Below, piece by piece: positions 10,998 to 47,430 of a DNA stretch of 64,000 nt (its first letter is position 1; each line of letters starts with the position of its first letter). The stretch spans positions 208,501 to 272,500 of the forward strand of contig JAIGNY010004521.1 of the NCBI GenBank assembly GCA_020152595.1, read 5' to 3'. The notes under the pieces are model-generated. The model was not told the DNA's origin, searched no databases, and saw only the letters and a list, made by a program, of their open reading frames with translations. The stretch comes from Chiridota heheva. Lineage: Eukaryota; Echinodermata; Holothuroidea; Apodida; Chiridotidae. The translations under genes were made by a program, and so were the position numbers.

Positions 10998-10999
10998 TT

Positions 11000-20697: not shown

Positions 20698-20705
20698 AAT
20701 AGAAA

Positions 20706-20930
20706 ATGTCTGTCTTTATTAGCCACAATTGGGCACATCATCAATATGGCATGACATTGGTAAAAGACCTCAGGAACGAAGGCATAGAGGCATGGATTGA
20801 TGAGGGAAATATTGCACCAAATATTGGAGATGACTTACCAGGTGAAATTGTGAAAGGAATCAATTCTGCAGAAATCTTTGTTGCCCTAATTACAAAGGAG
20901 TATGAGTTGTCAGACTACTGCAGGAAAGAG
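20706..20930 (+). CDS. TIR-domain protein, coding exon 1 (N-terminal half of TIR)
   Basis: This encodes the first 75 residues of a TIR domain that starts at residue 2 (SVFISHNWAHHQYG, strand A), followed by helix A, IEAWIDEGN and the BB-loop region NIAPNIGDDLPGE. IFVALITKEYELSDYCRKE then leads to C-x-x-E, where Glu75 is the last codon of the exon. In TIR enzymes of the SARM1 and plant type this Glu is catalytic for NAD+ cleavage, so NADase activity is plausible but unproven. The ATG is chosen because an in-frame TAG lies two codons upstream and a 3' splice site ends at 20697. The donor is GAG|gtgcta (phase 0), and joining to 22071 gives normal TIR spacing. Reading through instead ends after eight more residues. 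The usual function is innate immune or cell-death signalling. Confidence 0.88.
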
Positions 20931-22070
20931 GTGCTACATGACATGATTCTTATTTAAATTAACAAATTGTATCAGATAAAGAGGGTGGAATATGGAAGAC
21001 AATAGACATGCAATAGATGAGAGGGCAAATGGGGTGGTAGAACAGATGGAGGTAGAAGGGCGGATGGTGGGGATTGGCAGTGGGTATGGTTTGGATGGGT
21101 GTGAGGATGGGAGTGAACAAGGGTAGGGGGATAGGTGGACAGAAGTGCTAGGGTGGGTATTGTGTGAAGGTTGGGTAGAGGGCATATTAGCATAAGACAA
21201 CACATGAAAAAACACTTGATTTCAGCCTTTTGTTTTAATTCAAAATATGTGAATTTATATTTTTCAAATGTTGTATTTTTCACTATTGATTTGAATAAAT
21301 TAGTGGGAAGTATAATTTTTCCTTGCTTAAACCAGTTGGGTATGGATTAAACTTTCCATCGGATACTGTATGTGTATAATGCAACATTGAAAATATCTCA
21401 AAGTTCATGCGGTATGGCTCTTGCTATTAAACTTGTATTAATTCCCTTTGGGTCATTGGCAGTGGTAACCTGCCCCATTATGGCTAAAGCTAGGGTGTGG
21501 AGTCGTGTGAGGCCATCCTTTAAAAATTGTTGTTTGCTGTAATCCTACCTACCCAACAAAAATGGTACCTCCCTACCTACCCAACAAAAATGGTTCCTCC
21601 CTACCTACCTACCCAACAAAAATGGTACCTCCCTACCTACCCAACAAAAAGGGTACCTCCCTACCTACCCAGCACAAATGGTACCTCCCTACCTACCCAA
21701 CAAAAATAGTACCTTTCTACCTACCCAACAAAAATGGTTTCTCCCTACCTACCCAACAAAAATGGTACCTACTCAAATAATTTTGTTTAATTTGGTCTGA
21801 ATGGTACAGTATGGTAGTTAGTGCTTTAGTGTATAAAAGGTATAAAAATACTTGAATTTGGCCACCAAAAATAATTTGCCTACCTACCTGTACCCAATTG
21901 TTTTGCTGAAGCCTGTTACAGCAAACCAACATTTTTCGTAAGGACTGCCTGACTGCTAAATTTCTGTATCCTTGATAAAGCTCTTTGGACACACATCATT
22001 AATAAAAATGGTTTCCTTAAGACCCTTAAATGAACTTTCATATACTGAACATTTATTTTCTTCCTTGCAG
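20931..22070 (+). other. intron 1 of the TIR gene
   Basis: It is bounded by gtgcta and by TTTATTTTCTTCCTTGCAG at 22052-22070. It carries a G-rich strand-biased stretch at 20990-21190 and a minisatellite at 21540-21775. Confidence 0.8.
21540..21775. repeat. 27-28 bp minisatellite in intron 1
   Basis: About nine copies of CCCAACAAAAATGGTACCTC plus CCTACCTA. Most contain GGTACC. Open frames over it (YLPTQQKWYLPTY pattern) are artefacts. Confidence 0.95.
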
Positions 22071-22278
22071 TTGAATTTGGCGGATGATAAAAAGAAGTGT
22101 ATTATTCCGGTATACATAGAAAACAAGAAAGACTTGAAGAAAGACTCCTCTGTTTGCTTACTTATTTCTGGCCTGCTGTACCTGGATTTTTTTAGGGGCA
22201 ATGAAAACCAACATAAACTTGAAACATTCTGGACAGGCCATCAGGAGTTTCCTAAACTCCTTCATAAGCTTCGAAAAG
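22071..22278 (+). CDS. TIR-domain protein, coding exon 2 (C-terminal half of TIR)
   Basis: The exon follows TTCCTTGCAG and encodes LNLADDKKKCIIPVYIE, the KK-x-IIPV strand D of TIR_2-type domains. SGLLYLDFFRG is the strand E motif (Y-x-D-F), and a final helix, EFPKLLHKLRK, closes the domain. Phase 0 at the start matches exon 1; the spacing from C-R-K-E to I-I-P is the same as in ordinary TIR domains. The donor AAAAG|gtataa leaves phase 1 (first base G of a Gly or Glu codon). All the exons I find downstream accept phase 1. The TIR part totals 144 residues, a complete domain. Confidence 0.88.
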
Positions 22279-22468
22279 GTATAATTCTTTCTTTTCAACC
22301 ATTTTATTTTCTACATTATACCACGATATACAGCTTTTTGTCCAACATAATGTTTTCACGTTCTGTAGCTCGTTCATGCGTATCTTACAAAATGTTGAAA
22401 AAACTTAGTTCAAATTCTTATTCCGGTAAGGAGCTATTCAAGTTTAAAGCTCTGTCTTCTCTTTGTAG

Positions 22469-22548
22469 AAATGACTTCTGTAGTAAGTGTACTATGGAAG
22501 GTTGGTGCCCTCATAATCACATTCTTAACAGTTGTTAATGTATTTTAA
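22469..22548 (+). CDS. alternative terminal exon A: hydrophobic tail
   Basis: A polypyrimidine tract and AG (TCTGTCTTCTCTTTGTAG) end at 22468. Entering in phase 1 from the TIR exon makes a Glu codon (G|AA). The frame then encodes 25 residues, MTSVVSVLWKVG then ALIITFLTVVNVF, and TAA at 22546-22548. The segment is hydrophobic enough for a C-terminal membrane anchor. Spliced directly after the TIR it would give a tail-anchored TIR protein of about 170 residues. The duplicate at 27547 keeps hydrophobicity with conservative changes. There is no transcript evidence; it could also be a repeat-borne cryptic exon. Confidence 0.5.
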
Positions 22549-22879
22549 AGAAAGTGTATTTAACTTTTTGGCTATTTGAATTATTTTCCCTTAAACTTTC
22601 TTCAAGTGGTAAATTATAATACCCTTACTAGATTATGTGTTTACTACCTACCTGACATATCCAATAGTTTTTAAGGCACACAATCGCAGGACAAAATATG
22701 ATAGAATACATTAAAACTTTGATGTGTGAAAAAGTTGCGATGAATGGAAAGGAATTGCTCCAAAATTTTAATGTAATTATTAAAAAAAATCAGTCACTGA
22801 CAATCATCACATGTTTTGTGATAAAGTGTATGATGATACTTTAAAACCCCATGGCCATATTCAGCTACTTCCAGATTGA

Positions 22880-22978
22880 AAACAATATTTGAATATATAT
22901 ATATATATATATATATAAATATATATATAAATATATATATAAATATATATATAAATATATATCTAAATATATATATAA

Positions 22979-23013
<35 letters not shown>

Positions 23014-23030
23014 TGTACATATATTTATTG
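22880..23030. repeat. AT microsatellite (ATATATATAA units), unit A
   Basis: A run of ATATATATATAAAT units about 140 bp long. The corresponding tract in unit B (27957-28045) is shorter. Confidence 0.95.
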
Positions 23031-23409
23031 CTTTTTATGATACATACATTTAAAAATGATCAAAATTGTACAATGGTAATATGCAAATATGTTGCAGTAC
23101 ACGAATATCGATTTAGTAGAACAAACAGAAAAAAAAGTAGAAAACGAAAAAAGTTGAAAATGACGATAAAGGTGTCTTACATGCAAAGTTAAACCCAAAC
23201 GTACAAGTAATCTACAAGTGGAAGTCCCGAGGCTGGTTGCAATAAAGTAACAATATTGAAAACAATAACTTAAGATATAAATGTTCTTAGGTTTTGTTGA
23301 TGTGACGTCCCAAAATTTAAATTAAATTTGCATAACAATAAGGCAATTAGACATTCAAAATATTGTAAAACCGATTTAAAGAAAGTTTTTGCTATTTTCA
23401 TGATAGGCC

Positions 23410-23853
23410 CTAGAGCATGGGTTCTTAATACAAAATTTGCCAAGGGTCATCATTTCATAACAGCTTCAAGCCATGGGCCAATCGCATGGCAAAACTAGCG
23501 TAATGTGACAAACAAAACCCGTTAAAACAAGTTGAGCATGCGCGATTAGAAGGATGTATGCCAGGTATCGGCCGTTTCTTATCCACCTTACTTGACAAGC
23601 CGCTAGCCCAATTTATAGTGGAACTAAAGATAACATTTTATTTGCTAAGCCGCGATGTTTGAGTGAGCTGATCTGCCTAGGAAAAAATCTTAAAATAAAC
23701 AAGTATTATGCGATTTTGACCGATCTCATACGGATTAAGCCAAATGCACTGTATTGCATTTTATAATGACTATTGTTCGCGGGCCAGATTAGATGGTCTG
23801 GCGGGCCAGATTTGACTCGCGGGCCGCCTATTAAGAATCGCCGCCCTAGAGCA
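23410..23853. mobile_element. hAT-like non-autonomous element with 8-bp TSD, unit A
   Basis: An 8-bp duplication CTAGAGCA flanks 23418-23845. The ends read (A/T)GGGTTCTTAA... and ...TTAAGAATCGCCGCC, an imperfect inverted pair of the type found in hAT elements (8-bp TSD, CAGGG-like ends, 'GCGGGCC' near the end). There is no coding capacity. The same element with the same TSD is at 28414-28873, so it was there before the tandem duplication. Confidence 0.7.
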
Positions 23854-26043
23854 TATTTTTGGTTCGCTTGCAAAGCATTTATGCGAATTACGTCCGTCCG
23901 GTCATCCGGCCGTCCACAGATTTGTCCACAGATTTCCTCAGAAATGTTAAAAGTTTTTTGAGAATTCCTCAGAAAATGTTAAAGTTTTTTCAGAGTTTCT
24001 CAGAAAAAGTTAGTTTTTTCAGATATTCTTATCGAAGGTTAGAATTTTCTTATAAAATGTTAAAGTTTTTCAGAGATACATAAGACAGGATTAAAGACTA
24101 GTTCCTTAAAAAGTCTACCAAACATTTGATATTTTCTTAGAAGATAACTGTAAAATGATATAATTTTCCAATATTCTTTAGAGATCCTCAAGTCTCTCTT
24201 GTAGCACTTAAGATTTAAAATCCTTAAAATTCTTCAAAATATTTGGGCACAAACAGTTATATCAGTCATGATTTTTTAAACTCCACCTTTATTATTGTGC
24301 TCAATTGCATAAAGTTGCCACAGTATATGACCTAACCACACTTTTTTTATTTAGTATGCTTAGTTAGGGAGTGTGACAGGATGTGATTGCATATAAACAT
24401 AGGAAGGGATGCCATGTGGGACATGGATGGGGGCCATGAGGGACATATGATATAATATTTACCATGTTGTATACACCAAGGGCTATATCAGGCATAATTA
24501 TTTGACTCCACCTTTTTTTTCCTATTTAACAACTCATTTGCATATAAGTTAAATGAATAGACACTTTAATACATAGTATGCTAAATCAGGAACTGTGATA
24601 GCTAGGATGAGACTTCTTATGGAGCTTATGGGACTTCATGTGAGACATAGGGTGGGATGCAATGTGGGACATGAGGTGGGCTACCATGTGGGACATGGGG
24701 TGGGATGCCATGTGGAACAGGGTGGAATGCCACGTAGGATATGTGGTGGAATGCCATGCAGGGGTAGGGTGGATTGCCATGGGATGGAATGTCATGTGGG
24801 ACATGGGATGTCATGTGGGACATGGCGTCCCACCCTATTTCAACAATTCATTTGCATATAAGTTATTATATGAACTGACACTTTCATACATAGTATGCTC
24901 AATCAGGGACTGTGATAGCTAGGATGAGACTTCTTATGGAGCCTATGGAATGTCATGTGGGACATGGGTGGGGTGGGATGCCATGTGGGACATAGGGTGG
25001 GATGCCATGTGGAACAGGGTAGAATGCCATGTGGGACATGGTGGGATGCCACGAGTAACACAGAGTGTGGCATAGGTTGTGATGCCATGTGTGACATAAG
25101 GTAGGATGCCATGTGTGACAAGGTAGGATGCCATGTGTGACATAGGGTAGGAGGCCATGTGCGACATAGGGTGGGAGGCCATGAGAACATGGGATGTGAT
25201 GCCATGTGGGACATAAAGTAGGATGTCATTGGGACATTGGGAGGAATACCATGTGAAACATATGGTGGGATGCCATGTGGGACATCAGGTGGGAAGCCAC
25301 AGATGCATGACACAGGGAGGGATGCCATGTGGGACATAGGGAGGGGTGTCATGTGGTACATATGGTTGGATTAATGTGGGACATACATGTAGGATGAGAT
25401 CCATGTGGGTCATAGCATGGGATGCCATGTGGGACATATGGTGGAATGCCATGTGGGACATATGGTGGAATATGCCATGTAAGACACTGTATGGTGAAAA
25501 GCCATGTGGAAGATATAGTGGAATGCCCTGTGGGACATATGATGGAATGCCATGTGGGACGTGGGACATGGGGTGGGATGCCATGTGGGAGATATGGTGG
25601 AATGCCATGTGGGACATGAGATGGTATGTCGTGTAAGACATGGGATAGGATGCCATGTGGGACATGGGATGGGATGCCATGTGGGACATGGGGTGGGGTG
25701 CCATGTGGGGCATAGGATGGGATGCCCTGTGGGACATATGATGGAATGCCATGTGGAACATGGGGTGTCATGTGGGACATGGGGTGGGATGCCATGTGGG
25801 AGATATGGTGGAATGCCATGTGGGACATGGGATGGGATGTCATCTGGGACATGGGGTAGGATGCCATGTGGGACATGGGATGGGATGCCATGTGGGACAT
25901 GGGGTGAAATGCCATGTGGGACATGGGATGCCATGTGGGACTTAATTGTGAGATGCCATTTTTATAATTGGCAGGACCATATGATATGGGTGTCAATTTG
26001 CATGGGCATGCGAACCATGACGGTATTTACCGTTCTAGTCTTT
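23854..26043. other. 2.2-kb block present only in unit A
   Basis: The two duplication units match up to AGAGCATATTTT (23861 / 28881) and resume at about 26046 / 28888 (TGAAGTCAAGTTG / TGATGTCAAGTTG). The block between has a degenerate TTCCTCAGAAAATGTTAAAG minisatellite at 23930-24080, three copies of an AT-rich motif (CATTTGCATATAAGTTA) at about 24300, 24540 and 24850, and the large minisatellite. It was either inserted in A or deleted from B. Confidence 0.8.
24400..25945. repeat. 23-24 bp GCCATGTGGGACATGG minisatellite
   Basis: Several tens of copies of GGGATGCCATGTGGGACATG plus GGGT, most regular at 25560-25935. It is interrupted near 24430-24600 and 24835-24950 by the AT-rich motif. The period of 24 keeps frames open on both strands, giving His/Gly/Cys-rich or Pro/Met/His-rich frames up to about 215 codons. 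These are not genes. Confidence 0.97.
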
Positions 26044-26229
26044 TAATTGAAGTCAAGTTGTTACTACAGTACCTGTCCATAAACTCTTTCAAGGCCAGTT
26101 ACTGTATCTAAGGTAAATGTAAATAGATTTCAGTTTGTCTTTTGATTGGTCGAAACACAATGGTGCAATGTGCACTTACATTGATAGTTTTGGAATAAAG
26201 TATGCCGCCACATTTTAATCATGACAGAT

Positions 26230-26465
26230 GGCCTTTTAAGTTTAAGCTTAATTAAGACTGATGCGTCTAAATGTAGTACAGTTTACTTTCTACCCCACTT
26301 TTTTTTCATTTTGTCATTGTTCAATTAAACAGATGCATACAAATGTAGTAGAGTGTACTTTCACCCAACTTTTTTTCATTTTGTCACTGTTCAATTAAAC
26401 AGATGCATCCAAATGTAGTACAGTTTACTTTCTACCCCACTTTTTTCATTTTGTCACTTCAGTTA
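26230..26465. repeat. 70-75 bp tandem repeat, unit A (about 3 copies)
   Basis: Units contain AATTAAACAGATGCATCCAA, ATGTAGTACAGTTTACTTTC and CCCCACTTTTTTTCATTTTG. The same array has about seven copies in unit B (29050-29580). Confidence 0.93.
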
Positions 26466-26650
26466 ATTATCTGTATCTGATCTCTCTAATTTTTGAACAC
26501 ATTTCTGTATTTCAGGTTGATGATGACTGAGATGGGTTTTGTGATCTTCTATTTTGTTTTGATTTGGAAACACAAATTAAATTGAACGGAAATCTAATCA
26601 ATTTTGTTTTTCTGTTACATTTGTTCTCCCTTTATTGCAACAACGTCAAG

Positions 26651-26815
26651 GTAAGGGTGTAGGGGAAGTTTGTGGCAAAACAAAGAAAAGGAAGCAAGTG
26701 ACACCGAATGAGACAGGAAATCAAGAAGAAGGAATTGCCAAAAGGCTTAAGGAGAATAATTCTGTGAACATTACTGGAGATAACAATACAGTGTATAATA
26801 ATGTTAAAAAACTTG
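26651..26815 (+). CDS. TIR-domain protein, exon 3: basic stretch and amyloid/RHIM-like motif (copy 1)
   Basis: A 165-bp exon lies between a pyrimidine-rich AG site (TTCTCCCTTTATTGCAACAACGTCAAG) and ACTTG|gtacgt. It is phase 1 at both ends, so it can be added or skipped without changing frame. It joins the TIR exon with a Gly codon. Residues in order: KGVGEVCGKTKKRKQ (a basic cluster that could act as a nuclear signal), a polar linker, then NNSVNITGDNNTVYNNVKKL. The G-D-N-N-T-V core resembles the G-x-x-N-x-hydrophobic core of RHIM motifs and related amyloid signalling motifs, although the residues before the Gly are offset by one. A duplicate lies at 29784. The role as an assembly motif is inference. 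Confidence 0.72.
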
Positions 26816-26999
26816 GTACGTACATTTGACATTCTTGTAGAGATCTTATTTGATTCCAGTTAAGCTTGAAAAAGTTTTGCTTATTCAGCACATGCTGTTC
26901 TAGCAAAAATTTCAAAACGGGGTGGTCAACAACATTACATGTCGGGTCGCAGAAAATATTTACAGAACCTAAAAGTTAATAGCGGCACCAGGATTTTAA

Positions 27000-27290
27000 A
27001 TAACAAGCAATCAGAAACTTTTTTTTTCTTTGTAAAACCACCAATCAGAGAGCTTTTTCAAAAACAATAGGTCAGAGAACTTGCTAAAACAACCAATCAG
27101 TAGCTTTTTCTGAAACAACCAATCCTAGCTTTTTCTAAACAGCCAATCAGAGAGCTTTTCTAAAACAAACAATCAGAGTTGTTTCTAAACAACTAATCAG
27201 AGAGCTTTTTCTAACAACCATTCAGAGAGCTTTTCTAAAACATTAAATCAGAGGTGTTTCTAAAAGAACCAATTAGAGAGCTTTTGGGCA
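27000..27290. repeat. 25-28 bp CCAATCAG minisatellite, unit A (about 10 copies)
   Basis: Degenerate units of AAACAACCAATCAGAGAGCT plus TTTTCT. Unit B has only about two copies (30145-30200). Each carries a CCAAT-box-like ACCAATCAG. Confidence 0.93.
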
Positions 27291-27546
27291 ATGCTAAAAA
27301 TTTCAAAAATTTAAAATGGTTTTTGTGTGTATTTGACATGATTTTTAAGCAATGTCTTGCCACCAAAACCGTGAACGACCACATGCCATTGTGCATTACC
27401 GCCACAGGTGGTACATGCTTCTACATACAATTTTATTTGTGCTCCCCCCCCCCCCCCCACCCTCCCTATCCCACAAAATAAATACGTTCAAAATCTTATT
27501 CCGGTAAGGAGCTATTCAAGTTTAAAGCTCTGTCTTTTCTGTGTAG

Positions 27547-27626
27547 AAATGACTGCTGTAATAAGTCTACTATGGAAGGTCGGTGCCCTCATAATCACAT
27601 TCTTAACAGTTGTTAATGTATTTTAA
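27547..27626 (+). CDS. alternative terminal exon B: hydrophobic tail
   Basis: The acceptor TCTTTTCTGTGTAG ends at 27546. Phase-1 entry creates a Glu codon, then 25 residues, MTAVISLLWKVG then ALIITFLTVVNVF, and a stop at 27624-27626. It differs from tail exon A by Ser to Ala, Val to Ile and Val to Leu plus a silent change, all conservative. Spliced after exon 3 it would give a TIR-amyloid motif-membrane tail protein of about 225 residues. No transcript evidence is available. Confidence 0.5.
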
Positions 27627-27956
27627 AGAAAGTGTATTTAACTTTTTGGCTATTTGAATTTTTTTCCCTCAAACTTTCTTCAAGTGGTGAATTCTAATAC
27701 CCTTGCTAGATTATGTGTTTACTACCTACCTGACATATCCAATAGTTTTTAAGGCACACAATCGCAGGACAAAATATGATAGAATACATAAAGACTTTAA
27801 ATGGAATGGAATTTCTCCAAAATTTTCATGTAATTATTAAAAAAATTAACCTAAATTCCAGTCACTGACAATCATCAGATGTTTTCTGATAAAGGGTATG
27901 ATGTAAGTTCAAAACCCCATGGCCATATTCAGCTACTTCCAGATTGAAAACAATAT

Positions 27957-28000
27957 TTGAATATATATATATATAAATATATATATAAATATATATATAA

Positions 28001-28032
<32 letters not shown>

Positions 28033-28045
28033 TTATACATATATT
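27957..28045. repeat. AT microsatellite, unit B
   Basis: ATATATATAAAT units, the shorter counterpart of 22880-23030. Confidence 0.93.
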
Positions 28046-28413
28046 TATTGCTTTTTATGATACATACATTTAAAAATGATCAAAATTGTACAATGGTAAT
28101 ATGCAAATATGTTGCAGTACACGAATATCGATTTAGTAGAACAAACAGAAAAAAAAGTTGAAAATGACGATAAAGGTGTCTTACATGCAAAGTTAAACCC
28201 AAACGTACAAGTAATCTACAAGTGGAAGTCCCGAGGCTGGTTGCAATAAAATAACAATATTGAAAACAATAACTTAAGATATAAATGTTCTTAGGTTTTG
28301 TTGATGTGACGTCCCAAAATTTAAATTAAATTTGCATAACAATAAGGCAATTAGACATTCAAAATATTGTAAAACCGAATTAAAGAAAGTTTTTGCTATT
28401 TTCATGATAGGCC

Positions 28414-28873
28414 CTAGAGCAAGGGTTCTTAATACAAAATTTGCCATGGGTCATCATTTTATAACAGCTTCAGGCCGTGGGCCAATCGCATGGCAAAACC
28501 AGCGTAATGTGATAAACAAAACCCGTCAAAACAATCCCTGAATACAAACAAGTTGAGAGCGTGTGCGATAAGAAGGATGTATGCCAGGTATCGGCAGTTT
28601 CTTATCCACCTTCCTTGACAAGCCGCTAGCCCAATTTATAGTGGAACTAGAGATAACATTTTATTTGCCAAGCCGCGATGTTTGAGTGAGCTGATCTGAG
28701 AAAACAACCTCAAAATAAACAAGTATTATGCGATTTTGACCGTTCTCATTCAGATTAAACCAAATGCACTGTATTGCCTTATATAATGACTATTGTTTGC
28801 AGGCCAGATTGGATGGTCTGGCGGGCCAGATTTGGCTCGCGGGCTGCCTGTTAAGAATTGCCACCCTAGAGCA
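28414..28873. mobile_element. hAT-like non-autonomous element with 8-bp TSD, unit B
   Basis: CTAGAGCA flanks 28422-28865. The ends are AGGGTTCTTAAT... and ...TTAAGAATTGCCACC. It is the duplicated copy of the element at 23410-23853. Confidence 0.7.
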
Positions 28874-29049
28874 TATTTTCCTCCAATTGATGTCAAGTTG
28901 TTACTACAGTACCTGTCCATAAACTCTTTCAAGGCCAGTTACTGTATCTAAGGTAAAAGTAAATAGATTTCAGTTTGTCTTTTGATTGGTCGAAACACAA
29001 TGGTGCAATGTGCACTTACATGTACATTGATAGTTTTGGAATAAAGTAT

Positions 29050-29580
29050 GCCGCCACATTTTAATAATGACAGATGCCCTGTTAAGTTAATGCTTAATTA
29101 AAACGGATGCATTTAAATGTAGTACAGTTTACTTTCTACCCCACTTTTTTTCATTTTGTCACTGTTTAATTAAGCAGATGCATACAAATGTAGTAGAGTG
29201 TACTTTCTACCCCACTTTTTTTAATTTTGTCACTGTTCAATTAAACGGATGCATCTAACTGTAGTAGTTTACTTTCTACTCCACTTTTTTAATTTGTCAC
29301 ATTAATTAAACGGATGCATCCAAATGTAGTATACTTTCTACCCCACTTTTTTCATTTTGTCACTCTTCAATTAAACGGATGCATCCAAATGTACAGTAGT
29401 ACAGTACACTTTCAACCCCACTTTTTTTCATTTTGTCTCTGTTCAATTAAAAGGATGCATTCAAATGTAGTAGTTTACTTTCTACCCCACTTTTTCATTT
29501 TGTCACTGTTCAATTAAACGGATGCATCCAAATGTAGTATACTTTCTACCCCACTTTTTTTTTTCATTTTGTCACTTCAA
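29050..29580. repeat. 70-75 bp tandem repeat, unit B (about 7 copies)
   Basis: Units contain AATTAAACGGATGCATCCAA, TGTAGT, ACTTTCTACCCCACTTTTTT and CATTTTGTCACT, with some truncated units. It is expanded relative to 26230-26465. Confidence 0.93.
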
Positions 29581-29783
29581 TTAATTATCTGTGTAATTGT
29601 GTATCAGATCTCTCTTAATTCTTGAACACATTTCTGTATTCTAGGTTGATGATGACTGAGATGGGTTTTGTGATCTTCTATTTCGTTTTGATTTGGAAAC
29701 AAACAAATTAAATTGAGCGGAAATCTAATTAATTTTGTTTTTTTGCTTACTTTTTTTTCTCCCTTTATTGCAACAACGTCAAG

Positions 29784-29948
29784 GTAAGGGTGTAGGGGAA
29801 GTTTGTGGCAAAACAAAGAAAAGGAAGCAAGTGACACCGAATGAGACAGGAAATCAAGAAGAAGGAATTGCCAAAAGGCATGAGGAGAATAATTCTGTGA
29901 ACATTACTGGAGATAACAATACAGTGTATAATAATGTTTAAAAACTTG
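29784..29948 (+). pseudogene. amyloid/RHIM-like exon, copy 2, with an in-frame stop
   Basis: This is an exact-length copy (165 bp) of 26651-26815 with the same splice signals. The sequence differs at the Lys-Arg-Leu-Lys site (LK becomes HE) and at one base that turns GTT-AAA into GTT-TAA. Translation would therefore end right after VYNNV. It may be a dead duplicate. It could equally be an alternative last exon giving a TIR protein of about 196 residues ending on the motif. The amyloid core NITGDNNTVYNNV is unchanged. Confidence 0.6.
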
Positions 29949-30144
29949 GTACGTACATTTGACATTCTTGTAGAGATCTTATTTGATTCCAGCTATGGTT
30001 GTAAAAGTTGTGCCCATTCAGCACATACTGTACTGTTCTAGCAAAAATTTTAAAACAGGGTGGTCAACAACATTACATGCCGGGTCGCAGAAAATATTTA
30101 CAGAACCTAAAAGTTAATAGCGGCACCAGGATTTTAAATAACAA

Positions 30145-30200
30145 CCAATCAGAAAGCTTTTTTTTTCTAAAACAACCAATCAGAGAGCTTTTTCAAACTG
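30145..30200. repeat. CCAATCAG units, unit B (about 2 copies)
   Basis: Two AACCAATCAGA(AAG/GAG)AGCTTTT units, the contracted counterpart of 27000-27290. Confidence 0.85.
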
Positions 30201-30210
30201 ATTTTTGGGT

Positions 30211-30311
30211 TTCTGAGTAATTAAGCATTCGAAGTGGTAACAGTATTATGTGTTACAAAATTATATTACAGCCGCTTTTGAATGCCCAACTTTTTAACCA
30301 ACATTAGTTAA
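30211..30311 (+). repeat. partial terminal repeat of the 4.1-kb element
   Basis: TTCTGAGTAATTAAGCATTC through CCAACATTAG is the inverse of 32029-32120 and matches 35950-36060 in the same orientation. It is truncated directly before the LINE. Confidence 0.88.
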
Positions 30312-30317
30312 GCATCA

Positions 30318-31990
30318 GTGGGTTTTACCTTCTAGACCCTAAGCTTACCTACAAGCGACACATCACCAACCTGAAACTGAAATGCAACAGCTCCCTCAAC
30401 CTCCTCAGACTCCTCTCCAACACCACTTGGGGTGCGAACCGCTTTACTCTCCTCAAAATTTTCAGGCTCACCGTTCGTGCCAAGCTTGACTACGGCAATA
30501 TTGTCAACTGTGTCGCTCACAACTCGTACCTCAACCACATCAACACCATCCAAAATGAAGCCCTCAGGATTTGTCTAGGTGCTTACAGGACCTCCCCAAT
30601 AACCAGCCTTCATGTTGAAGCCAACGAACTCCCCTTTCTACTTAGATGTAGAAAGCTTAGCCTATCCTATGCTTTTAGGGTCCTCACCAACACCCAGAGC
30701 CCTGTTTACAACCTCATTAGGTACCCCAATTTCTCCTCCCTCTTTAATAGGACTAAAACCCTATCCCCTACCTTCTGCTTACGCATTAAATCAGACCCTC
30801 TATCTCGGCATCAGCCCCACCACTCTCGGCACCTTCTCCTGGCCCACTTTTTTCCTTGGGCCACCCCCCTCCCTTCTGTCCACTTGGGCCTCTCCACCCA
30901 TCACAAAGCTCAAACCCATCCTAACCTCTTCATCAATCTCCACAACCAAGTCAAAGACCAACTCTCAAATTACACCTCCATCTATACTGATGGGTCCAAG
31001 GAGGGCAACAAGACAGCTGCTGCTGCGGTCATCCAAGACATCACCCTCAGTAGCAGACTTCCCGACTACTCATCCATCTTTTCAGCCGAGGCTAAGGCCA
31101 TTCTCCTTGCCCTCAACTTTATTGAGTACTCCTTGCTCAGCCACTTTGTTATTTTCTCCGACTCAAAGGCTGTTCTTACTTCTTTACTCAACCTTAAATG
31201 GGATAACCTCACATGCCACCTCCTCCTCCGCAAACTCCTTTCTCCCGCCCTCTGCAGGAAAAGTATTCTTTTCTTCTGGATTCCCAGCCATGTTGGCATC
31301 CAGGGTAATGACAGGGCTGATGCAGCCGCTAAGCTTGCCCTCACCCTCCTCCCTGCCCATTTCCCCAAAACCCTCTATGACATCAAACCGCTTATCGCTT
31401 TTCTTGTTCGTGACCGCTGGCAAACCTCATGGAAGTCCCAAATTGATAACAAACTCCATGTCATCCAGCCCACAATTCCGATCAAAGCCACCATCAACAA
31501 CCTCTCTTGTATTGACAACGTTCATATTACCCGTCTTAGAATTGGTCACACTCATCTCACCCACTCCCACCTCCAAATTGGCTCCCCCCAACTTCTCTGC
31601 AACAATTGCCTTTGCACCCTCACAATCCATCACGTTCTCCTTGCTTGCCCCCTGTACAACCTTCCCAGAGCTCCCCTTGCTCCCTACAACTCAATTGCTG
31701 AGTTCTTCCAGAAAATTCCTCCATATAAAATTATCTCCTTCCTTCATCATGCTTCCCTCTACGACCATATTTAATTCTCCATTTCCACCCCCTCTCTACT
31801 TTGTTTTTGTTTCAACCATGCACCTCCCCTCACGATCACAGCTTTCTGACCTTTTGTCCTTAAATTTCTCTCATTCTCCCCCTGTTTCCTTTACTTCCTA
31901 CCTCTAGAATGATCTGACCTCTCAGGCACAATTTGACCTTAGTAGATGTGGTGCAGTTAAGCCATCATCAAACAAAACAAACAAACTGAC
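30318..31990 (+). mobile_element. 5'-truncated non-LTR retrotransposon (LINE, RNase H-bearing clade)
   Basis: The element begins inside ORF2 and ends in a CATCATCAAACAAAACAAAC tail. A second copy (43085-44936) ends with the same tail motif, which identifies the 3' end. 5' truncation is usual for LINEs. RNase H downstream of RT places it in the I/R1/LOA/Nimb-type group; the exact clade is not determined. Confidence 0.85.
30322..31774 (+). pseudogene. LINE ORF2 C-terminal part: end of RT, RNase H, zinc knuckle
   Basis: One frame is open without stops for about 480 codons, lacking the start of ORF2. It begins with the RT thumb region (LLDPKLTYKRHITNLK, then VRAKLDYGNIV and IQNEALRICLGAYRTSPI). 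The RNase H domain has all four acidic residues: Asp in SIYTDGSK, Glu in SAEAKAILLAL, Asp in IFSDSKAVL and Asp in GNDRADAAAK. It also has FFWIPSHVGI. A C-x2-C-x7-H-x4-C knuckle (CNNCLCTLTIHHVLLAC) follows. The stop is at 31772-31774. The longer open frame at 30612-31907 in another phase is a shadow. The intact frame suggests recent insertion. Confidence 0.87.
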
Positions 31991-31992
31991 CC

Positions 31993-32290
31993 ACCCAATC
32001 CGAAGAATAGGTAAACTTTCAAAATCCTAATGTTGGTTAAAAAGTTAAGCATTTAAAAGCGGCTGTAATATAATTTTGTACCACATAATGCTATTAACGC
32101 TTTGAATGCTTAATTACTCAGAAGCAGTACAACAGTATTATAGTTTTGGTAAAGATTGTGAACACTCGTAGGCTTATGCCACGGCTAAAATACAGTAATC
32201 TTGTGTATTTGGGAGGAAATGAGTTGAAATGGCCTATATAAAGAACAAACCCGGTGCCCTTAAATTTGTCAAAAATCTCAATAAGATGTC
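31993..32290 (-). repeat. left terminal inverted repeat
   Basis: Reverse complement of 35815-36101. Confidence 0.88.
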
Positions 32291-36422: not shown

Positions 36423-36562
36423 GTGATAATGTTAGACTAGCATGGAAACCCACTCCTTGTGTTGAAAAAACTCTTGCACGTCAATACGTTGGCACCGTCC
36501 ATAAGTTTGGAGTGTCGTCAACAGTTCTGAGCCATCATATCTTGCGCAGGATCTTGATTTAA
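36423..36562 (+). CDS. TIR-domain protein, candidate C-terminal exon (alternative last exon)
   Basis: A strong 3' splice site (TTAATTTCCTCTCTTGCAG) precedes it. In phase 1 it makes a Gly codon with the preceding exon and continues for 45 residues (DNVRLAWKPTPCVEKTLARQ, then YVGTVHKFGVSSTVLSHH) to TAA at 36560-36562. I do not recognise the sequence as a known domain. Frame, splice site and position on the same strand as the TIR exons support it. The alternative is that it is a decayed internal exon, as no good donor is seen. Confidence 0.55.
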
Positions 36563-37599: not shown

Positions 37600-37745
37600 A
37601 GACCTCTATTAGGGTTTACGTCAAGACGCCCACGGCCATTTTATTAACCAGTCGTGGAGCACTGATTGGAGACCCACCAGGCATCGAACCCGGGACGCTA
37701 GATTGGAAAGTTGAAGCTTTATTGCACTGTCACGGATGTTCCAGT
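37600..37745 (-). mobile_element. tRNA-derived SINE, minus strand
   Basis: On the minus strand GTGACAGTGCAATAAAGC (box A-like) is followed about 35 nt later by GGGTTCGATGCC (box B-like), with TTTCCAATCTAG between them in the anticodon-arm position. The rest has no tRNA fold, so it is a tRNA-derived SINE remnant rather than a tRNA gene. Confidence 0.55.
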
Positions 37746-37839
37746 AGTTTTAGTTAAAACCCTAAAGTATTTCCTGGTTGCAAGTGAACAAATTTCACTG
37801 GTAAATAATATTGCTGCTCTGTGGGAAATCTTTCAAGAA

Positions 37840-38055
37840 AATTATTTTCAATTTCAGTTTTGGACTATATTTTCTCTTTGAATTTTCACAAAGTTTATTT
37901 TTCTGTAAAATTTCCAATCTTCTTTATTTTTCATGAAAATTTCTTCAATTTTGAGGAAACTTTCTTTAATTTTTATGAAACTTCCTTCAATTTTCATGAA
38001 ACTTCCTTCAATTTTTTGGAATTAAAAAAATTGAACAAATTTTTGAATTTTATTC
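37840..38055. repeat. degenerate TTTCTTCAATTTT minisatellite
   Basis: Units of about 20 bp (ATGAAACTTCCTTCAATTTT) repeated about eight times with decay. The same family occurs at 50900-51500 and, inverted, at 54530-54690. Confidence 0.8.
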
Positions 38056-39329: not shown

Positions 39330-39677
39330 AGGCAGACTACTCTTATAAATCTAGTGTAAAAAACCTGCTTCATAAATTAGATTGGCCCCTGCTTAAAACA
39401 AGAAGATACAACACCCGGCTACATATGCTATATAAAATCAATAACAATCTTGTCGCCATCAATAAAGATGAACTTATCCCCACCGTCAGAACTAATACAA
39501 GAAATAATCATGACCTTAATTTCCAGGTTCCCTATGCTGAAAAGAATGTATATAAATACTCTTTCTTCCCTCACACTGCCCTAAAGGATTGGAATGCTTT
39601 ACCTTCAGACATTGTACATGCACCAAGTCTTAACTGTTTCAAAGCTAAACTTTCTAACACTTGTATTGCTAACTAGT
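39330..39677 (+). pseudogene. LINE RT C-terminal fragment, a different clade
   Basis: A continuous frame shows the distinctive end of jockey/CR1-like RT proteins: HKLDWPLLKTRRYNTRLHML, YKINNNLVAI, then YKYSFFPHTALKDWNALPSD and PSLNCFKAKL, stop at 39674-39676. Only the last about 115 codons remain. Confidence 0.75.
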
Positions 39678-42600
39678 TTTTTTTAATATTTTTTACCCAT
39701 ACTTTTTACGCTCGGTTGGCGTTCATGTCCTCTTGAAGGATTTTTGCCGACTTAACCGATTCAGATTCACTACTTTTTGCCCAACAGACTACGAAAGATA
39801 ACAAATCATGATAAAATTGACAACCGACTGATACAAAAACTAATGAAAATCACGAAAAAAACAACTTACTAATTCGTGAAGTAAAACCAAATGTTGTTTA
39901 AACTATGACAAAAATAATTTCAAATTCATCTTAGGGCAAAGTACAAACCAAGAGCCTCAGAAAAGTTCTATCACAATTCGATTAGACCCGCTGGACACCA
40001 TGATTACAACGCATGCGCATTGAGTGTGTGTCCGTACAACGGATGTACAACACCAATAGACTATATACAGCGCTCTTGCCTTTCAAGAACAATTGATGCT
40101 ATTGGATGGAGGAGGGGATAAAACGCTCGATTTACAAAATACTCTTAGATTCGATGGTATATCAAGAGAAAGTTTATTTTGTGATTTATAAGAGTATTTT
40201 CATACCCAATTTCGAGATGTGTACTCGTCATATCAGCTTTAGCGTTTGGAAAGCTAGATACCTCCCAGTTTTTTTTAAACTGAAGTTTAGATAGATAAGT
40301 AGACCCCATAAGTATTTTACAGACCTAATTTACCTCATTTGATAATATGAGGCAACATTTATTACAAATTTTGTCACTTTTATTTTTATTCCTACCAGCC
40401 AACAAACTAACACAATTTTCTGAAATTTAGTGAGAAGGCTCTGGGGCTCCAAAACCGTGACAGCTTTCATATTTCGCCTGGAAAATGAGTCGATTATATA
40501 TCTATTACTTGTTTTCATATACATAGCATGGGACTTTAACATGCTCTGTAGTTAGTGGTGTAGCCAGAGGGTGGATGGAAGGGGGGGCCCTTTTCACAGG
40601 AAATTGGAATAATCTTTGTTTATATATATATCGCTTTTCAAAATTGCCTTCAGAATTGGGCTAAATTTGAACACAGTATTGTCTGTATAATCTTTGAATT
40701 TGCTTACATTTGAAGTTGCAGTGATTTATATAATTTACATGACGAAAAAAACAAAACACTTGTGACAATTAGCAAATATGTTTGTGTAGACAATGGTGTA
40801 ATAATAAAGTAACACAATTGGTTTAAGAAGTAAAAGATGTGTGAACCATTTATTATTCTCTATACATATCATTAATACATTTTGCAATGAACAATCACTA
40901 TTACTCACATGTGTCATTACAAGAAGTATAACAACTGATAATATTTTAATGAACTTTTTCTATGTATCCATTTATTCTTAAAATGTAGTAACATACGGTT
41001 AATTGGAGATGAATATACAATACATGTCGATGTTCTGTCTGATTGGTCGAAATATTTAAACAAACACTGACAAGTAAATCAATAAACTACGCGAGTGATT
41101 TACTGGTGACGTAGGCTCTAAAACATTTTTTTGGGACAACATTCCTACTTAAAAATGTATAAATTACTGCAAGTTTAAATTCTTAAAAGTTAAGCAAATT
41201 TAAAGATTATACAGACGATACTGTAACTGTTCAAACAGTTATCACAGATATTTTCTGCGATCAGGCAATAGAAATTGTGAAAGTATATGCCAATATGAAT
41301 TGAGCTTACCTGACAGCAAATATTGTTATACAGTTAAAGGCTTAAATTCATGATGATAAGTACATTTGAAGAAATTAGGCACCAACGTTGATCGTTCAAA
41401 AGGACGTTAACATAAACAAAATGGTGGAAAATAGTAGAAATGACTGGTGTGAACAGTTTACTGCAGAATATTGACGTCCTAATCAACACTTTCTCAACAA
41501 CTATTCAAATGAAAAATGATTAAACTGTTTTTAGTAATTGAATTTTTTCTTCAAACTTTGTTGGGGTGCCAAATTAGGATTACACTATACTGGTTTCCAA
41601 TTTACTCCTTTGCTGCTGGATAATTCAATAGTTTTTGAAGAAAAACAACATTCAACCAAAAATATGACAGTCAGGGACGCCGGAACGATTGAAGGGCAAG
41701 GAGCGGGGGAAGGGAAGGAGGTGGGTTAAGAGGGGGGGGGGGGCAGAATCCCAAAAAGGATCCATGTCCCGCAAAATTTTGAAAAAAGCTAGTACAATAA
41801 CAGACTAGCCCCTCACCCTTCTTCACCCCCTCCTCCCTCGTGCGCCCACACATATACATAGATAGATATATATTATTTCGAATACAAATCCCTTTATTGA
41901 AAAAAATAAAACAAAATATTTCACGTTTATGACTTTACGAAACTGCAGGAATGAAATATTTCTGCCCGGTAGCTTGCAGTCTTGGGACTTGAGAATCTTC
42001 TAAAGCTCATGAAAGGCAAAATATGTAGGGATGATAGGCTATCTATGAGTATTCATAAAAGTTTCTTGAACAAAAAAAGTACATTTATGAAAAGGGCACT
42101 TGTGAATCACTTCGAAAAGGGCAGGAGGCGCGATTACCCCAGGCGTCCCAGATAATGCTTCAAAAATACACCCGAAATGTGTAAAAAGTACGAAACAAAA
42201 GAAAAGGACACGAAAATTGTCTTCTGAAAATCACAGCCAATGGTATTTTACGCATGCGTATTATTTTGAATACAAAACAAAAAACGGCAACAGTGATTTC
42301 ATCAAATCCTCAATGTCTGACTATACGCAGCACATGGCGATATCATACTGCGATCATTCTGCATTATTTATTTCAAATAAATTCAATGTCCCAAATTTCA
42401 ATCACTGAAAATCATTAAACTCTTTCCTACCGTTAAATTGTGATCGAGTCATGATATTAACTGCTCTCTTTCAAAGAATGTTTAGGAAAGATTGAAATAT
42501 ATTAAGTTAACATAGTGAAATTCGTAGCGTTTACTCTTTGTTATGTCACAAAATATTGATAAAATTTGCATAATTTATTATAATAAAGGCTTAAAATATT

Positions 42601-43084
42601 CAAAATGACTTAAAATTATCAATTCTAACAGATTTTTCATATTTCCAATTTCTCGATATTAACGTGCAGGTTTCGTGTATTTTGTCTGGCAGCAGAAGAG
42701 CGCCACACGCTGTAATTAAAATGCCGTGCATTCTGCGGCTATACACCCCGTTCTGTTTTCTTTAATTTGATAGCTAGGCTAGTTTCTCCTCTCATGAAGA
42801 GAGCTTCTATTGTACCTATATCCATAATCTGACTGTTTATTGAAAATCCAAGCTGGCACAATAAATGTAAAGGGCAGACAGAGCATGCTTTCAGGATTGT
42901 CATACAAGCAAACTTCTGACATTTCAAAATATCGACTCACCGTCATAAGAGCAAAAATACTTTTTTCAGTACAGTAGCTTAATTGTGAAGTTGGTGGTGA
43001 AAGAATATCACAAAAGAGTCTATGTTACGTAACTCTGAAACTCTATCACTCTATACAAGGAATATTTCTGGAGAAAGGCTATTT
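39678..43084. other. no gene seen
   Basis: AT-rich, with a G-run at 41731-41744 and C-rich text around 41815-41850. Short open frames have no recognisable domain. Confidence 0.5.
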
Positions 43085-44936
43085 GTGTTCAGTTACGAAA
43101 GGAATTTCGTAACGTCAACCTGAGCATTAACGACATCGCGGACAATCTTGGCCCAAACATCAAACGTGCCCTCTACGACTTCACGATCTTCTACTCCTCC
43201 CATAGCTTTCCTCTTGTCGAAAATAGGCTCCAACTCAGCCTCACCTGGATAGATAACACTGGTGCAACAATAACGGTTTTAAATTCTCCAAAGACAAGAC
43301 AGTCCGCATGCACTTCTGTCATTTCAACAAGCTCCACCCCAACCCGAACCTCGTGCTCAATGGCAATCGCATCCCTAAAGTTGACCACACTAAGTTCCTG
43401 GGTTTAACTCTAGACCCTAAACTCTCCTACAAACAACACATCACCAACCTAAAAAAAAATGCAATAGCTCCCTTAAGTTTCTCCGCCTCCTCTTCAACAC
43501 CAGTTGGGGTGCGAACCGCCATGTTCTCCTTAAAATCTTCAGGCTCACTATTCGTGCCAAGCTCGACTACGGCAATATTATATACTTTGCCGCTCACAAA
43601 TCTTACCTCAACGACATTACACCATCTAAAATGATGCCCTTAGGCTTCATCTGGGTGAGGACCCCACTCCCACCCCACCCTATCACCAGCCGTAATGTTG
43701 AAGCCAACGAACCCCCTTTCTGCTAAGGTGTAGAAAGCTTAGCCTCTTTTATGCTTTTAGAACCTTCACCAACACGCATCAAACCAGACCTCCTCCATCT
43801 CGGCATTAGCCCCGCCACTCTTGGCACCTTCTCCTTGCCCACATTTCCTCCACCTGGGCCTCATCACAAAGCCCAAACCCACCCTAACCTTTTCATCAAC
43901 CTTCACAACCAAATCAACGACCAATTCTCTAGCTACACCTCCATTTATACTGATGGCTCCAAGGAAACGACAAGACAGATGCTGCTGTCGTCATCCAAGA
44001 CATCACCCTCAGTAGCAGCCTTCAAGTTCCCAACTACGCGTCCATCTTCTCGGCCAAGGACAAGGCCATTCTATTCGCCTTCAACTTTATTGAATACTCC
44101 CCGCTCAGCTACTTTGCCATCTTTTCCGACTCCAAGGCTGTCCTTACTTCTTTACTTAATCTTAAATGGGATAATTCCACCTCCTTCGTAAGCTATCCCT
44201 TCCCCCTTTCTCCCCACTCCTTGCAGGAAAAGTATTATTTTCTTCTGGATACCCAGCCATGTTGGCATCCCCGGCAATGACAGAACTGATGCAGCCATTA
44301 AGCTTGCCCTCAACATCCGCCTACGCCCTTTCCCAAAACCTTTTCTGACATCAAACCGCTTATCGCTTCCCTTGTTCGTGACCGCTGACAAACCTCATGG
44401 GGCTCCAAAATTGATAACAATCTCAACGTCATCCAGCCCACAATTCCGATCAAACCCACCATCCACAATCTCTCCCGTGTTGACAACGTCCACATTCTGA
44501 CATTTCTTGCCTTAGAATAGGTCATACCCACCTCCTTATTGGCTCCCCAACCCTCTGTAACAATTGCCATTGCACCCACACAGTCTACCACGTCTTCCTC
44601 TCTTGCCCCTGTACCCTTCCCAGAGCTTCCCTTGTTCCCAACAACTCAATAGCCGAGCTCTTCCAGAAAAATCCTCTGGATAAAATTATCTCCATCCTTC
44701 ATAGTCTTCCCTCTACAACCATATTTGGTCCTCTCCTCCCACCCCTCTTTCTACTTTTGCCACCCCCCCTCCCTTATGCACTTCTCTCTCGATCCCAATA
44801 TTCTAGTGTTTCTCTCAATCTCCCCCTATTTTTCTTTCTTCCTACGTCTGGAATGATCTAACCTCTAAGGCACATTTTGACCCTCGCTGTGTGGTGCCGT
44901 TAAACCCTCATCAAACAAACAATCAAACATCAGTTG
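43085..44936 (+). mobile_element. second copy of the RNase H-bearing LINE, decayed
   Basis: This is the same family as 30318-31990 but starts further 5' in RT. It includes KTVRMHFCHFNKLHPNPN and KVDHTKFLGLTLDPKLSYKQ, then the SIYTDGSKE start of RNase H at about 43935. After this, indels split the frame. DNA similarity continues through the zinc-knuckle region to the CATCAAACAAACAATCAAAC tail. Numerous frameshifts show it is older than the 30-kb copy. Confidence 0.85.
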
Positions 44937-44956
44937 TTTTTTGAACACATCAAAAT

Positions 44957-45240
44957 ATACCTACTGTGGTTAGCGGTTATCATACCTGTCTACAGACCAC
45001 GAGGCCCTGAGTTCAAGCCTGGGTTGGGTAGACACGCCAGTGTACCACAACTGGTTACCAAAGGCCGTGGATATTGACTTGGTTGTCGATGTTATGTCTA
45101 TCCGTACGTCATACCTGTGTTCTCGTCCAGGTCGTATTAAGCGTTTCGTGATAGCATTGTTACTATCATAAGCGAATACGCAGGCGACGACCCCGTCATT
45201 GTAATTGTGTGTTTACTCGTCGTCGTCGTCGTCGCAAACA
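44957..45240 (+). mobile_element. tRNA-derived SINE, plus strand
   Basis: TGTGGTTAGCGGTTATCA (box A-like) at 44964 is followed about 40 nt later by GAGTTCAAGCC (box B-like, 45009-45019). A tRNA-unrelated body then ends in GTCGTCGTCGTCGTCG at about 45218-45234. This is the structure of a SINE with a trinucleotide tail. Confidence 0.65.
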
Positions 45241-45884
45241 CATCAATGGAAGAAGTGTTTCTGATTTTAAAGGGTAGGCCTCATGCATTTCACATAGGTG
45301 GGCCGGCATGATATAAAGCTTGGTTCCCTACTTAATTTTGTGAAGGAAAAGTCACTAGTGCGAGTGTGTCAGTTGAGGATCTCAAAGGTCGGTTGGGATG
45401 ATAAATTGTTAATATGTCCTGAAGATTACATGGTTTAGGCTTCTGAAAACATTTGAATATACACATCAGAAAGCGAAAATGTACTCTTAGATGACAAGGT
45501 AGCCAACGAAAATCAGCAAGTATTGGTGAAATGTGACCAACATGTTTGCGCCTTGTAGCAACCCTAGCCGCTTTGTTCTGCGCTAGCTGTAGACGTTTAA
45601 TTGTGTTTGAGAGATTCCTGCAAAAAGAGAATAGCTGTAATCAAGTCTTGATGTAACAATGTAACAAGGCATTGGATATCTGTTTTGCAAGCCTGAGTGA
45701 ATACAAAACTGGGCAGCATTGCCGATGTTTCGAAGGTGAAAATAGCAGGTAGAGAAGCCATTCACTAGTAATTTTCATTACACTTTTTACAGCTTACAAA
45801 TTCAGGTAGGTATGTCGAACCACTCAACCAAACTTATGAAATCAGAACTTGTAAACTATGTCAGAAAAAAATATTTGTTTTTTT
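45241..45884. other. no gene seen
   Basis: No feature I can support. Confidence 0.5.
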
Positions 45885-46200
45885 ATTCTTAGTAGAGAGG
45901 TTGTTCTTAAGTTGTATAAGCAGGTAGTCATGCCTCCCCCTAAGTATGCTATTCAGGCTTAGAGTCCCTTTTATGAGAAGGATAACTTCATTTTCGAGCA
46001 GGTTCAACAAAGAGCCACTAGACTTATCCCCGAAGTAAGGAATCTTTCTTCTGAATCTAGGTTACAAATTTCTCGTTTGGCCACGGTGGTTGAGTTGAAA
46101 GAGTATATATATGGCGATATTATTTAGGCTTTTAAATTCATATCTGGTAGTTCTCACGTGACACATGGTAACAGTTTGTAGTTGACCAAAGAGTTCTCAC
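45885..46200 (+). pseudogene. LINE RT fragment (CR1/jockey-like), stops in frame
   Basis: The frame reads VVLKLYKQVVMPPPKYAIQA, stop, SPFYEKDNFIFEQVQQRATR and then LIPEVRNLSSESRLQISRLA. This is the R-P-x-L-E-Y-A ... Q-R-R-A-T-x-L-I-P region that follows the RT palm in CR1/jockey-like LINEs. TAG codons occur at the expected Trp sites. It is a dead remnant and not from the RNase H-bearing family. Confidence 0.72.
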
Positions 46201-46559
46201 AGATAGATATTCAGCGTTTTAGCTCTTGCAAAGAGTTGTTGATGAGTATGTATAATGGTTTGCGTGAGTGGGTGGTTAGCTCTAATTCTGCTCTCAATTT
46301 CAAAGTCAACATTAATAAGTTTTTTACTAAGTCTGGGTGTTTTTATTTTGTTTATTATTCTGTATTTTTCTTTTGTAATGGTGATGTTAAGTTGGCATTA
46401 TTATGGGTTGACTTACCCTTCTAAGCACATTATCCTGTGTTAAGCAGTTGATTGAGTCTTCTTCTTGATTCATACATTTTTTTGAAACTTTAGATAAATT
46501 CTGTAAACTTTTTAAACTTGTATTGTTTTACTCTATTTCAATCTCTCTGCAATGTACAG

Positions 46560-46621
46560 GAAATCCTTTAAGACAGAGAGATGAAGCTGCTCTAGGACTG
46601 ATGCCAAAGCCTGGAAATGAG
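46560..46621 (+). CDS. TIR gene, candidate internal exon near the 3' end
   Basis: Acceptor ATTTCAATCTCTCTGCAATGTACAG ends at 46559. Only the phase-1 frame is open: Gly (G|GA), then NPLRQRDEAALGLMPKPGNE. It ends at AATGAG|gtgaga, a consensus donor, in phase 0. No domain is recognised. It could follow exon 3 directly because that exon ends in phase 1. Confidence 0.55.
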
Positions 46622-47286
46622 GTGAGAACAAATTCTTTTGTTTATTATGCAATTGTTGTTTAAATTTCGTGACATCGCAAAAAGAAACAAACAAAACTAT
46701 TAATTTCCTCTTGTTAACTTATTGTGTTTCACTCATTCCCTAACGTTATTTAAATGGGAGCATTTGAATATAGCCAAAAACTTTTGAACTTCCATTATAC
46801 CACCAATCAAAACACTTTAATTCCTGTTTGCTTTGAAACCCATTAAGGGCACTTTCAGTATTGCAGATCTCATATTTGAGATAGAACTCACTTAAATGGT
46901 TTTTAGCTTGGTTATTCAAAGAATAGTGAGAGCTATATCTTACTATACCTGGCTGCATGGTGCTGGCATCAACATTTTCATTCAGTTAAAGTTTTTTGAT
47001 GAGTTTTTTTATAAGGTTCAAATTTTGGGAAGAGATTGATTCAAGTTTTCACAGGAGTTTGTTTGTTATGATAATGATTTCCTGACATGAATAGCAATTA
47101 AAATAATTGTGTTTGGCATGAATGAAAATTAGTCCAAGAATAGAGCTCTTCGCCTCAAATGACTTCAAAGTTAAGTGTATTGGGCATAACAAGAAATGTA
47201 AACAATAAGCAGATAAGTGTTGACTCGTATTGAGAGAAAACAAAAGATTTATATTAATCTGGCAGTTTGATTTTTCTTAAACTTAG

Positions 47287-47430
47287 GCATTCAAATTCAC
47301 CTTGAGGAAACATGTTCTCGACACGCCCAGTGACGACATTCGCAAGGAACAGCCAGACCATCCAATGATGGTTAGCCAGCCCAGCAAAGCATTAAAATCC
47401 ATCTCACAGGAAGAGACAACCCAAATATAA
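47287..47430 (+). CDS. TIR gene, candidate last coding exon
   Basis: It starts after TTTTTCTTAAACTTAG in phase 0, matching the previous donor. It encodes 47 residues (AFKFTLRKHVLDTPSDDIRK, EQPDHPMMVS..., ending SQEETTQI) and TAA at 47428-47430. A donor-like AAG|gtatta comes three bases later, and a 3' splice site (CTTTTTTACTTTACAG-like) ends at 48099, so a 3' UTR exon may follow. The tail is polar with no recognised domain. With exons 1-3 and 46560 it would give a protein of about 267 residues. Confidence 0.55.
   Translation, partial: AFKFTLRKHVLDTPSDDIRKEQPDHPMMVSQPSKALKSISQEETTQI

Follow-up and report, generated by a model that had tools for sequence, protein, structure and literature searches.

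The locus analysed here raises a direct question: can one animal gene make both a membrane-tethered TIR protein and a form of it equipped for self-assembly, by exchanging its 3' exons? It lies in a 64,000-nucleotide stretch of the Chiridota heheva genome (contig JAIGNY010004521.1, positions 208,501 to 272,500, forward strand), called the window below and numbered from its first base. An earlier sequence-only reading had proposed such a switch, with two TIR exons joined to a RHIM- or amyloid-type cassette and to alternative terminal exons. The exons lie where it placed them, with AG and GT boundaries, and all seven junctions that it named keep one open frame. The answer favoured here, tentatively and at slightly under even confidence, is a tail-anchored TIR gene with an optional cassette, segment A, that may replace the tail by an assembly motif. 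The earlier observation is partly confirmed, and its interpretation is partly supported by the sequence evidence set out below.

The argument begins with the two exons that encode the TIR domain:

T1, 20706..20930, plus strand: first coding exon, N-terminal half of the TIR domain; 75 codons, the last a glutamate.
T2, 22071..22278, plus strand: second half of the TIR domain, phase 1 at its end, with a weak donor of its own (-0.72).

Joined, T1 and T2 encode one complete TIR_2 domain (PF13676), covering profile positions 1-116 of 122 at E=7.8e-22 and 78.5 bits against a cut-off of 28. By its sequence the TIR gene is real, and the locus probably represents a functional animal TIR_2 gene, "animal" being deduced from intron structure, domain type and retroelements. 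The start codon of T1 has an in-frame TAG two codons 5' of it and a candidate acceptor at 20698 (score 3.5). Besides T1 and T2, the 64-kb window holds no further TIR exon, the next best match having E=0.28. Splice sites were scored with approximate animal matrices. These are a blunt guide, since the donors of T1 and T2 rank as ordinary, with 358 and 487 of 3213 GTs scoring equal or better, although making the TIR domain requires both of them.

Comparison with the PDB returned eight sequences at E<=1, the best being 9mud (Cat1, a CRISPR-associated TIR; E=2.6e-7), 3h16 (E=9e-5) and 7uxr (E=0.0011), all three presumably bacterial. In each of these three alignments, the ones examined, the final codon of T1 (E75) stands opposite a glutamate of the kind that we take to be the catalytic residue of TIR NADases (enzymes that cleave nicotinamide adenine dinucleotide, NAD). 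Passages available on other TIRs describe a glutamate of this kind. E75 therefore appears to occupy the catalytic position, and NAD cleavage by this protein is predicted. Separately, the frame of T2 runs on through the intron (22279-22535) to a stop at 22536, a run of about 86 codons with a chance of about 0.7% by stop-triplet frequency; intron retention would give another C terminus.

Downstream of T2, two near-identical terminal exons offer a membrane tail:

M1, 22469..22548, plus strand: terminal exon encoding a 26-residue hydrophobic tail and a stop; acceptor 6.0.
M2, 27547..27626, plus strand: duplicate of M1; acceptor 4.6.

Read in T2's phase, the M1 tail reaches a mean Kyte-Doolittle value of 2.25 over 19 residues and ends 3 residues before the C terminus, while the 144-residue TIR part peaks at only 1.2 on the same scale. 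The protein thus has a single hydrophobic segment at its extreme C terminus and none earlier, as expected of a tail-anchored protein. M2 differs from M1 at 4 of 80 bases (S to A, V to I, V to L and one silent change) and keeps both frame and hydrophobicity. Among the 32 acceptors downstream of T2 scoring at least 4.6, only M1 and M2 open a short phase-1 tail with a mean of at least 2.2 over 19 residues. None of the 32 does so in either other phase, none of 45 does so on the minus strand, and 50 shuffles give a mean of 0.04; the thresholds were chosen after M had been seen, and M2, as a copy of M1, is no independent case. The tail is above chance and convincing as a membrane tail, and its insertion into a membrane is predicted. 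A possible M-like relic at 41437-41511 (44% over 25 residues, E=0.006) was dropped for its very poor acceptor (-7.7); it is not strongly hydrophobic (0.78).

The second kind of 3' part is segment A, which has a shorter exon-like neighbour directly upstream:

N, 26516..26650, plus strand: exon-like alternative with an acceptor of 4.7 and a donor of 7.3; splicing T2 to it meets a stop at once and would yield a tail-less TIR protein.
A1, 26651..26815, plus strand: candidate phase 1-1 cassette, a basic stretch followed by a beta-arch-like motif rich in N and G; begins with the donor-like GTAAGG.
A2, 29784..29948, plus strand: duplicate of A1, with a stop at codon 53 directly after the motif.

Segment A is open in phase 1 only, the phase that T2 offers. 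Its motif consists of a hydrophobic strand, a G-D-N-N turn and a second hydrophobic strand, and is rich in asparagine and glycine. The pattern [VI]N[VI][TS]G[DN][NG]N, derived from the motif itself, is confined to A1 and A2 and absent from all 100 shuffles. A2 could serve as a final coding exon. As a side observation, one frame of 26516-26650 and of its copy from 29645 gives a short hydrophobic tail (LMMTEMGFVIFYFVLIWK..) and a stop, in the wrong phase for T2.

The RHIM label once attached to this motif does not hold. The RHIM core tetrad is (V/I)-Q-(V/I/L/C)-G according to the available text of PMC9444067; A has V-N-I-T-G instead, and published RHIM patterns find no match in it. A Pfam search of A alone, of a kind that often misses short motifs, returned no family at E<=10, RHIM included, and a PDB search of A returned nothing at E<=10. 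The lone strict tetrad match in six frames lies outside A, at 45800, where chance gives 0.43 per shuffle. A is thus, by its sequence, probably not a RHIM, and the broader label "amyloid-type" survives as a strand-turn-strand resemblance with no profile match behind it. PP, BASS and HRAM, amyloid signalling motifs of bacteria and fungi, are likewise short glycine/asparagine strand-turn-strand elements on immune effectors, a general and unscored likeness. PP and RHIM have a GxQxG segment in common, as described in the portion of PMC5485727 consulted; unlike them, A has no Q there, and no NLR partner is known for this gene. Signalling-amyloid behaviour of A, such as fibre formation or seeding, is putative.

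The present arrangement of tails and cassettes owes much to a tandem duplication:

First copy of the M-A segment, 22408..27062, plus strand: holds a minisatellite at about 24604-25950.
Second copy of the M-A segment, 27486..30197, plus strand: lacks the minisatellite.

Block 22408-23859 matches 27486-28879, and block 26045-27062 matches 28885-30197, so that one duplicated unit carried both the tail exon and the A segment, and the order is now T1-T2-M1-A1-M2-A2. Given an ancestral M-A unit, A followed by this tail could not have occurred in any product before the duplication. The earlier description of swappable 3' parts is accordingly narrowed: phase compatibility and the membrane tail stand, while the layout is partly a by-product of tandem duplication, M1 and M2 are copies of each other, and A2 had gone unlisted. 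The minisatellite, mostly of a 24-nucleotide unit, occurs in only one of the two copies. In a non-coding part, 22900-23400 against about 27920-28400, the copies show 3 differences in 443 aligned bases, against 3-10% in most of the remaining 100-base bins; either gene conversion or uneven constraint may be the cause.

The duplication also invites a reading in which the locus is decaying, either as a pseudogene after duplication and insertions or as two haplotypes assembled in a row. The stop in A2 and introns filled with retroelement and minisatellite sequence fit this idea. It is nevertheless unlikely: both TIR exons and the two M exons remain intact with their splice sites kept, and the copies are about 5% apart, with 65 differences among 1364 aligned bases and 54 among 1014, and differ further in the minisatellite.

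Under the favoured reading, that of a tail-anchored gene with an optional cassette, the default product would be a small tail-anchored TIR protein, T1-T2-M1 (170 residues), whose tail would keep the TIR domain at the membrane and restrain it. A minority product would skip the tail, either stopping in N or in a later terminal exon, or taking up cassette A. These tail-less or A-bearing forms would be the active ones, the beta-arch-like motif of A helping TIR domains to assemble and so switching on signalling or NAD cleavage. The duplication would additionally permit A followed by the tail (T1-T2-A1-M2, 225 residues) and a product that ends with the motif (T1-T2-A2).

A partial precedent for such restraint is TirC of Dictyostelium, described in the available sections of a preprint (PMC13142454) as an NAD-cleaving TIR enzyme whose hydrophobic N-terminal helix is predicted to tether it. 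Amoebae tolerate the full-length protein, and the helix-less form makes them round up and lyse; among possible triggers the authors mention an alternate transcript. Both TirC and the protein proposed here are small eukaryotic TIR proteins with one hydrophobic helix thought to tether them. The helix is N-terminal in TirC and C-terminal here, NADase activity is shown for TirC and predicted here, and the TirC passages at hand mention no motif cassette.

Several results weigh against the favoured reading. Hydrophobicity is no proof that the tail inserts into a membrane, and the preprint sections just cited report TirC to be toxic in yeast and E. coli despite its helix. The A1 acceptor scores -3.9, against 6.0 for M1, 4.6 for M2 and 8.8 for a terminal exon candidate, E36, described below. 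Two phase 1-1 exons are at least equal to A in length and splice scores, and 20 shuffles give 1.7 on average. A strong donor (7.3) overlaps the start of A1, a score reached by only 2 of 3213 plus-strand GTs, the other being the same site in A2. A2 differs from A1 at 3 of 165 bases, all non-silent and one creating the stop. Purifying selection on A was sought in the duplicate pair and rejected: the 3 of 165 differs significantly from the near flanks (28 of 387, p=0.009) but not from the whole duplication, where 24.2% of 1718 aligned 165-base windows away from A have 3 mismatches or fewer. Protein-collection searches gave 238 candidates for the 225-residue spliced product, none at E<=0.001, and 103 for the TIR part, none at E<=10. 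Pattern matches for TIR in viral contigs (5), for A in viral contigs (31) and for TIR plus A in prokaryote contigs (26) were none of them confirmed at E<=0.001.

The chance-level count of A-like exons, the weak acceptor placed on a top-ranked donor and the want of a clear selection signal would all be expected of a simple tail-anchored TIR gene, an alternative we regard as serious, though its probability is noticeably less than even. Such a gene would make only T1-T2-M (or T1-T2-N); A, E36 and the exon pair E46-E47 would be non-coding or another gene's, and the motif of A accidental. It gains further from N, which lies just upstream of A and has a good acceptor together with that same donor. 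It does not explain why the open frame, basic stretch and N/G motif of A lie exactly in T2's phase, nor the long AG-free stretch ahead of A. That stretch spans 119 nucleotides before A1 (top 0.4% of 3309 AGs), its last 40 bases being 70% pyrimidines, and 66 nucleotides before A2 (top 3.3%). An alternative acceptor for A at 26663 scores -5.0, and there are 6 exons of that kind where shuffles give 2.35.

The unusual start of A allows a further reading. Joining T2 to 26651 recreates a donor of 7.3, against -0.72 for T2's own donor and 1.84 for that of A. Because A begins exactly at the top-ranked donor, which is rebuilt on joining T2, the splice signals suggest that A is a recursive-splicing cassette or else not an exon. 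In the former case, T2 would join 26651 and the rebuilt strong donor would compete with A's weaker one, so that A would usually be removed in a second step and sometimes kept. Published models, as given in the accessible parts of the papers, describe comparable behaviour: a "binary switch" in which two donors of a recursive-splicing exon compete for the next step (PMC5126111), and proximal recursive exons (PMC10156609). A1 and A2 are the only AG/GT sites on either strand that combine a long AG-free, pyrimidine-rich lead with a strong donor under the thresholds used, which were set post hoc and yield at least one such site in 25% of 200 single-strand shuffles. The boundary at 26651 is AAG/GT, whereas the human sites behind the model conform to YAG/GT, a rule from one study seen through the consulted part of PMC5126111. 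Recursive splicing of A would be a special form of the favoured reading, with which its probability overlaps, and we consider it improbable.

The boldest version is the least probable of all the readings considered, and only a slight chance is given to it. In it, recursive splicing would let one animal gene choose between a TIR enzyme tethered to the membrane and one armed with a prion-like assembly motif; the second splicing step would decide whether the motif is retained, and the duplication would have added products with both motif and tail.

Three further exon candidates lie downstream:

E36, 36423..36562, plus strand: candidate phase-1 terminal exon of 46 codons; acceptor 8.8.
E46, 46560..46621, plus strand: candidate phase 1-0 exon.
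E47, 47287..47430, plus strand: candidate terminal exon that may belong to another gene.

The acceptor of E36 is the third highest downstream of T2; the two higher ones, at 31258 and 44227, both lie within copies of a long interspersed nuclear element (LINE), and three more that exceed it lie far upstream, at 5229, 5426 and 6212. E46 and E47 join in phase to give 68 codons. Products running through A1 into these exons would have 245 residues (T1-T2-A1-E36) or 267 residues (T1-T2-A1-E46-E47). Phase-1 terminal frames of at least 20 codons follow 24 of the 58 acceptors downstream of T2 that score at least as high as E46, and 7 of the 12 that score at least as high as M1, where shuffles average 3.2. 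Such frames are common by chance, so phase fit alone is weak evidence, which again suits the simple tail-anchored gene. No Pfam family exceeds its cut-off for E36 or E46-E47, with one sub-threshold match for E36. The E46-E47 product has a faint PDB match (E=1.1) to residues 479-538 of a 730-residue Denticleless protein homolog; it is treated as chance, and it would also fit the simple gene, in which this pair belongs elsewhere. E36 and E46-E47 are candidates by their splice signals and open frame, and both may belong to another gene.

How new would the favoured layout be? The sequence-only reading knew of no described animal gene laid out in exactly this way. TRIF already provides an example of a TIR protein with a RHIM at its C terminus (PMC9440496, in the excerpt available), so only the alternative-tail layout would be new. 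Among the matches listed in a literature search on TIR, RHIM, amyloid and splicing, judged by title and the opening of the abstract, none is an animal TIR gene that has membrane-tail and amyloid exons as alternatives. As in TRIF/TICAM1, which combines TIR_2 with a C-terminal RHIM, a TIR domain is followed by a short assembly-type motif close to the C terminus. Unlike TRIF/TICAM1, the product has no TRIF N-terminal domain and no RHIM tetrad or profile match, its TIR starts the protein, and its motif sits on a separate optional cassette. A Pfam scan of the 225-residue product found TIR families and, below threshold, two other families, with no TRIF and no RHIM. SARM1 differs too, since it carries ARM and SAM domains before its TIR, whereas the TIR match here begins at residue 3 of the first coding exon. 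The "Group 18" TIRs of lower metazoans (PMC7075850) are likened by description only, as invertebrate TIRs of varied architecture, and the passages available name none with alternative membrane-tail and motif exons. The parts are of known kinds, and the switch between them is what we infer.

If the favoured reading is true, a TIR effector's leash (the membrane tail) and its trigger (the assembly motif) would be alternative exons of a single gene, and the way animals restrain TIR enzymes would become directly testable through splicing. It would also bear on whether RHIM is the sole animal signalling amyloid, a question listed as open in the consulted part of PMC7889193.

Elsewhere in the window, an Rfam search at gathering thresholds gave no match, and repeats are present. 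Positions 30211-32123 hold a LINE-like frame, 488 codons from stop to stop and matching RNase H, that lies between 97-nucleotide inverted repeats that are 91% complementary; the LINE part recurs once more, in degenerate form, at about 43039-44861. On the minus strand, separate frames within 7432-11045 match integrase, RNase H, reverse transcriptase and protease, pieces that probably derive from a Gypsy-type retroelement.

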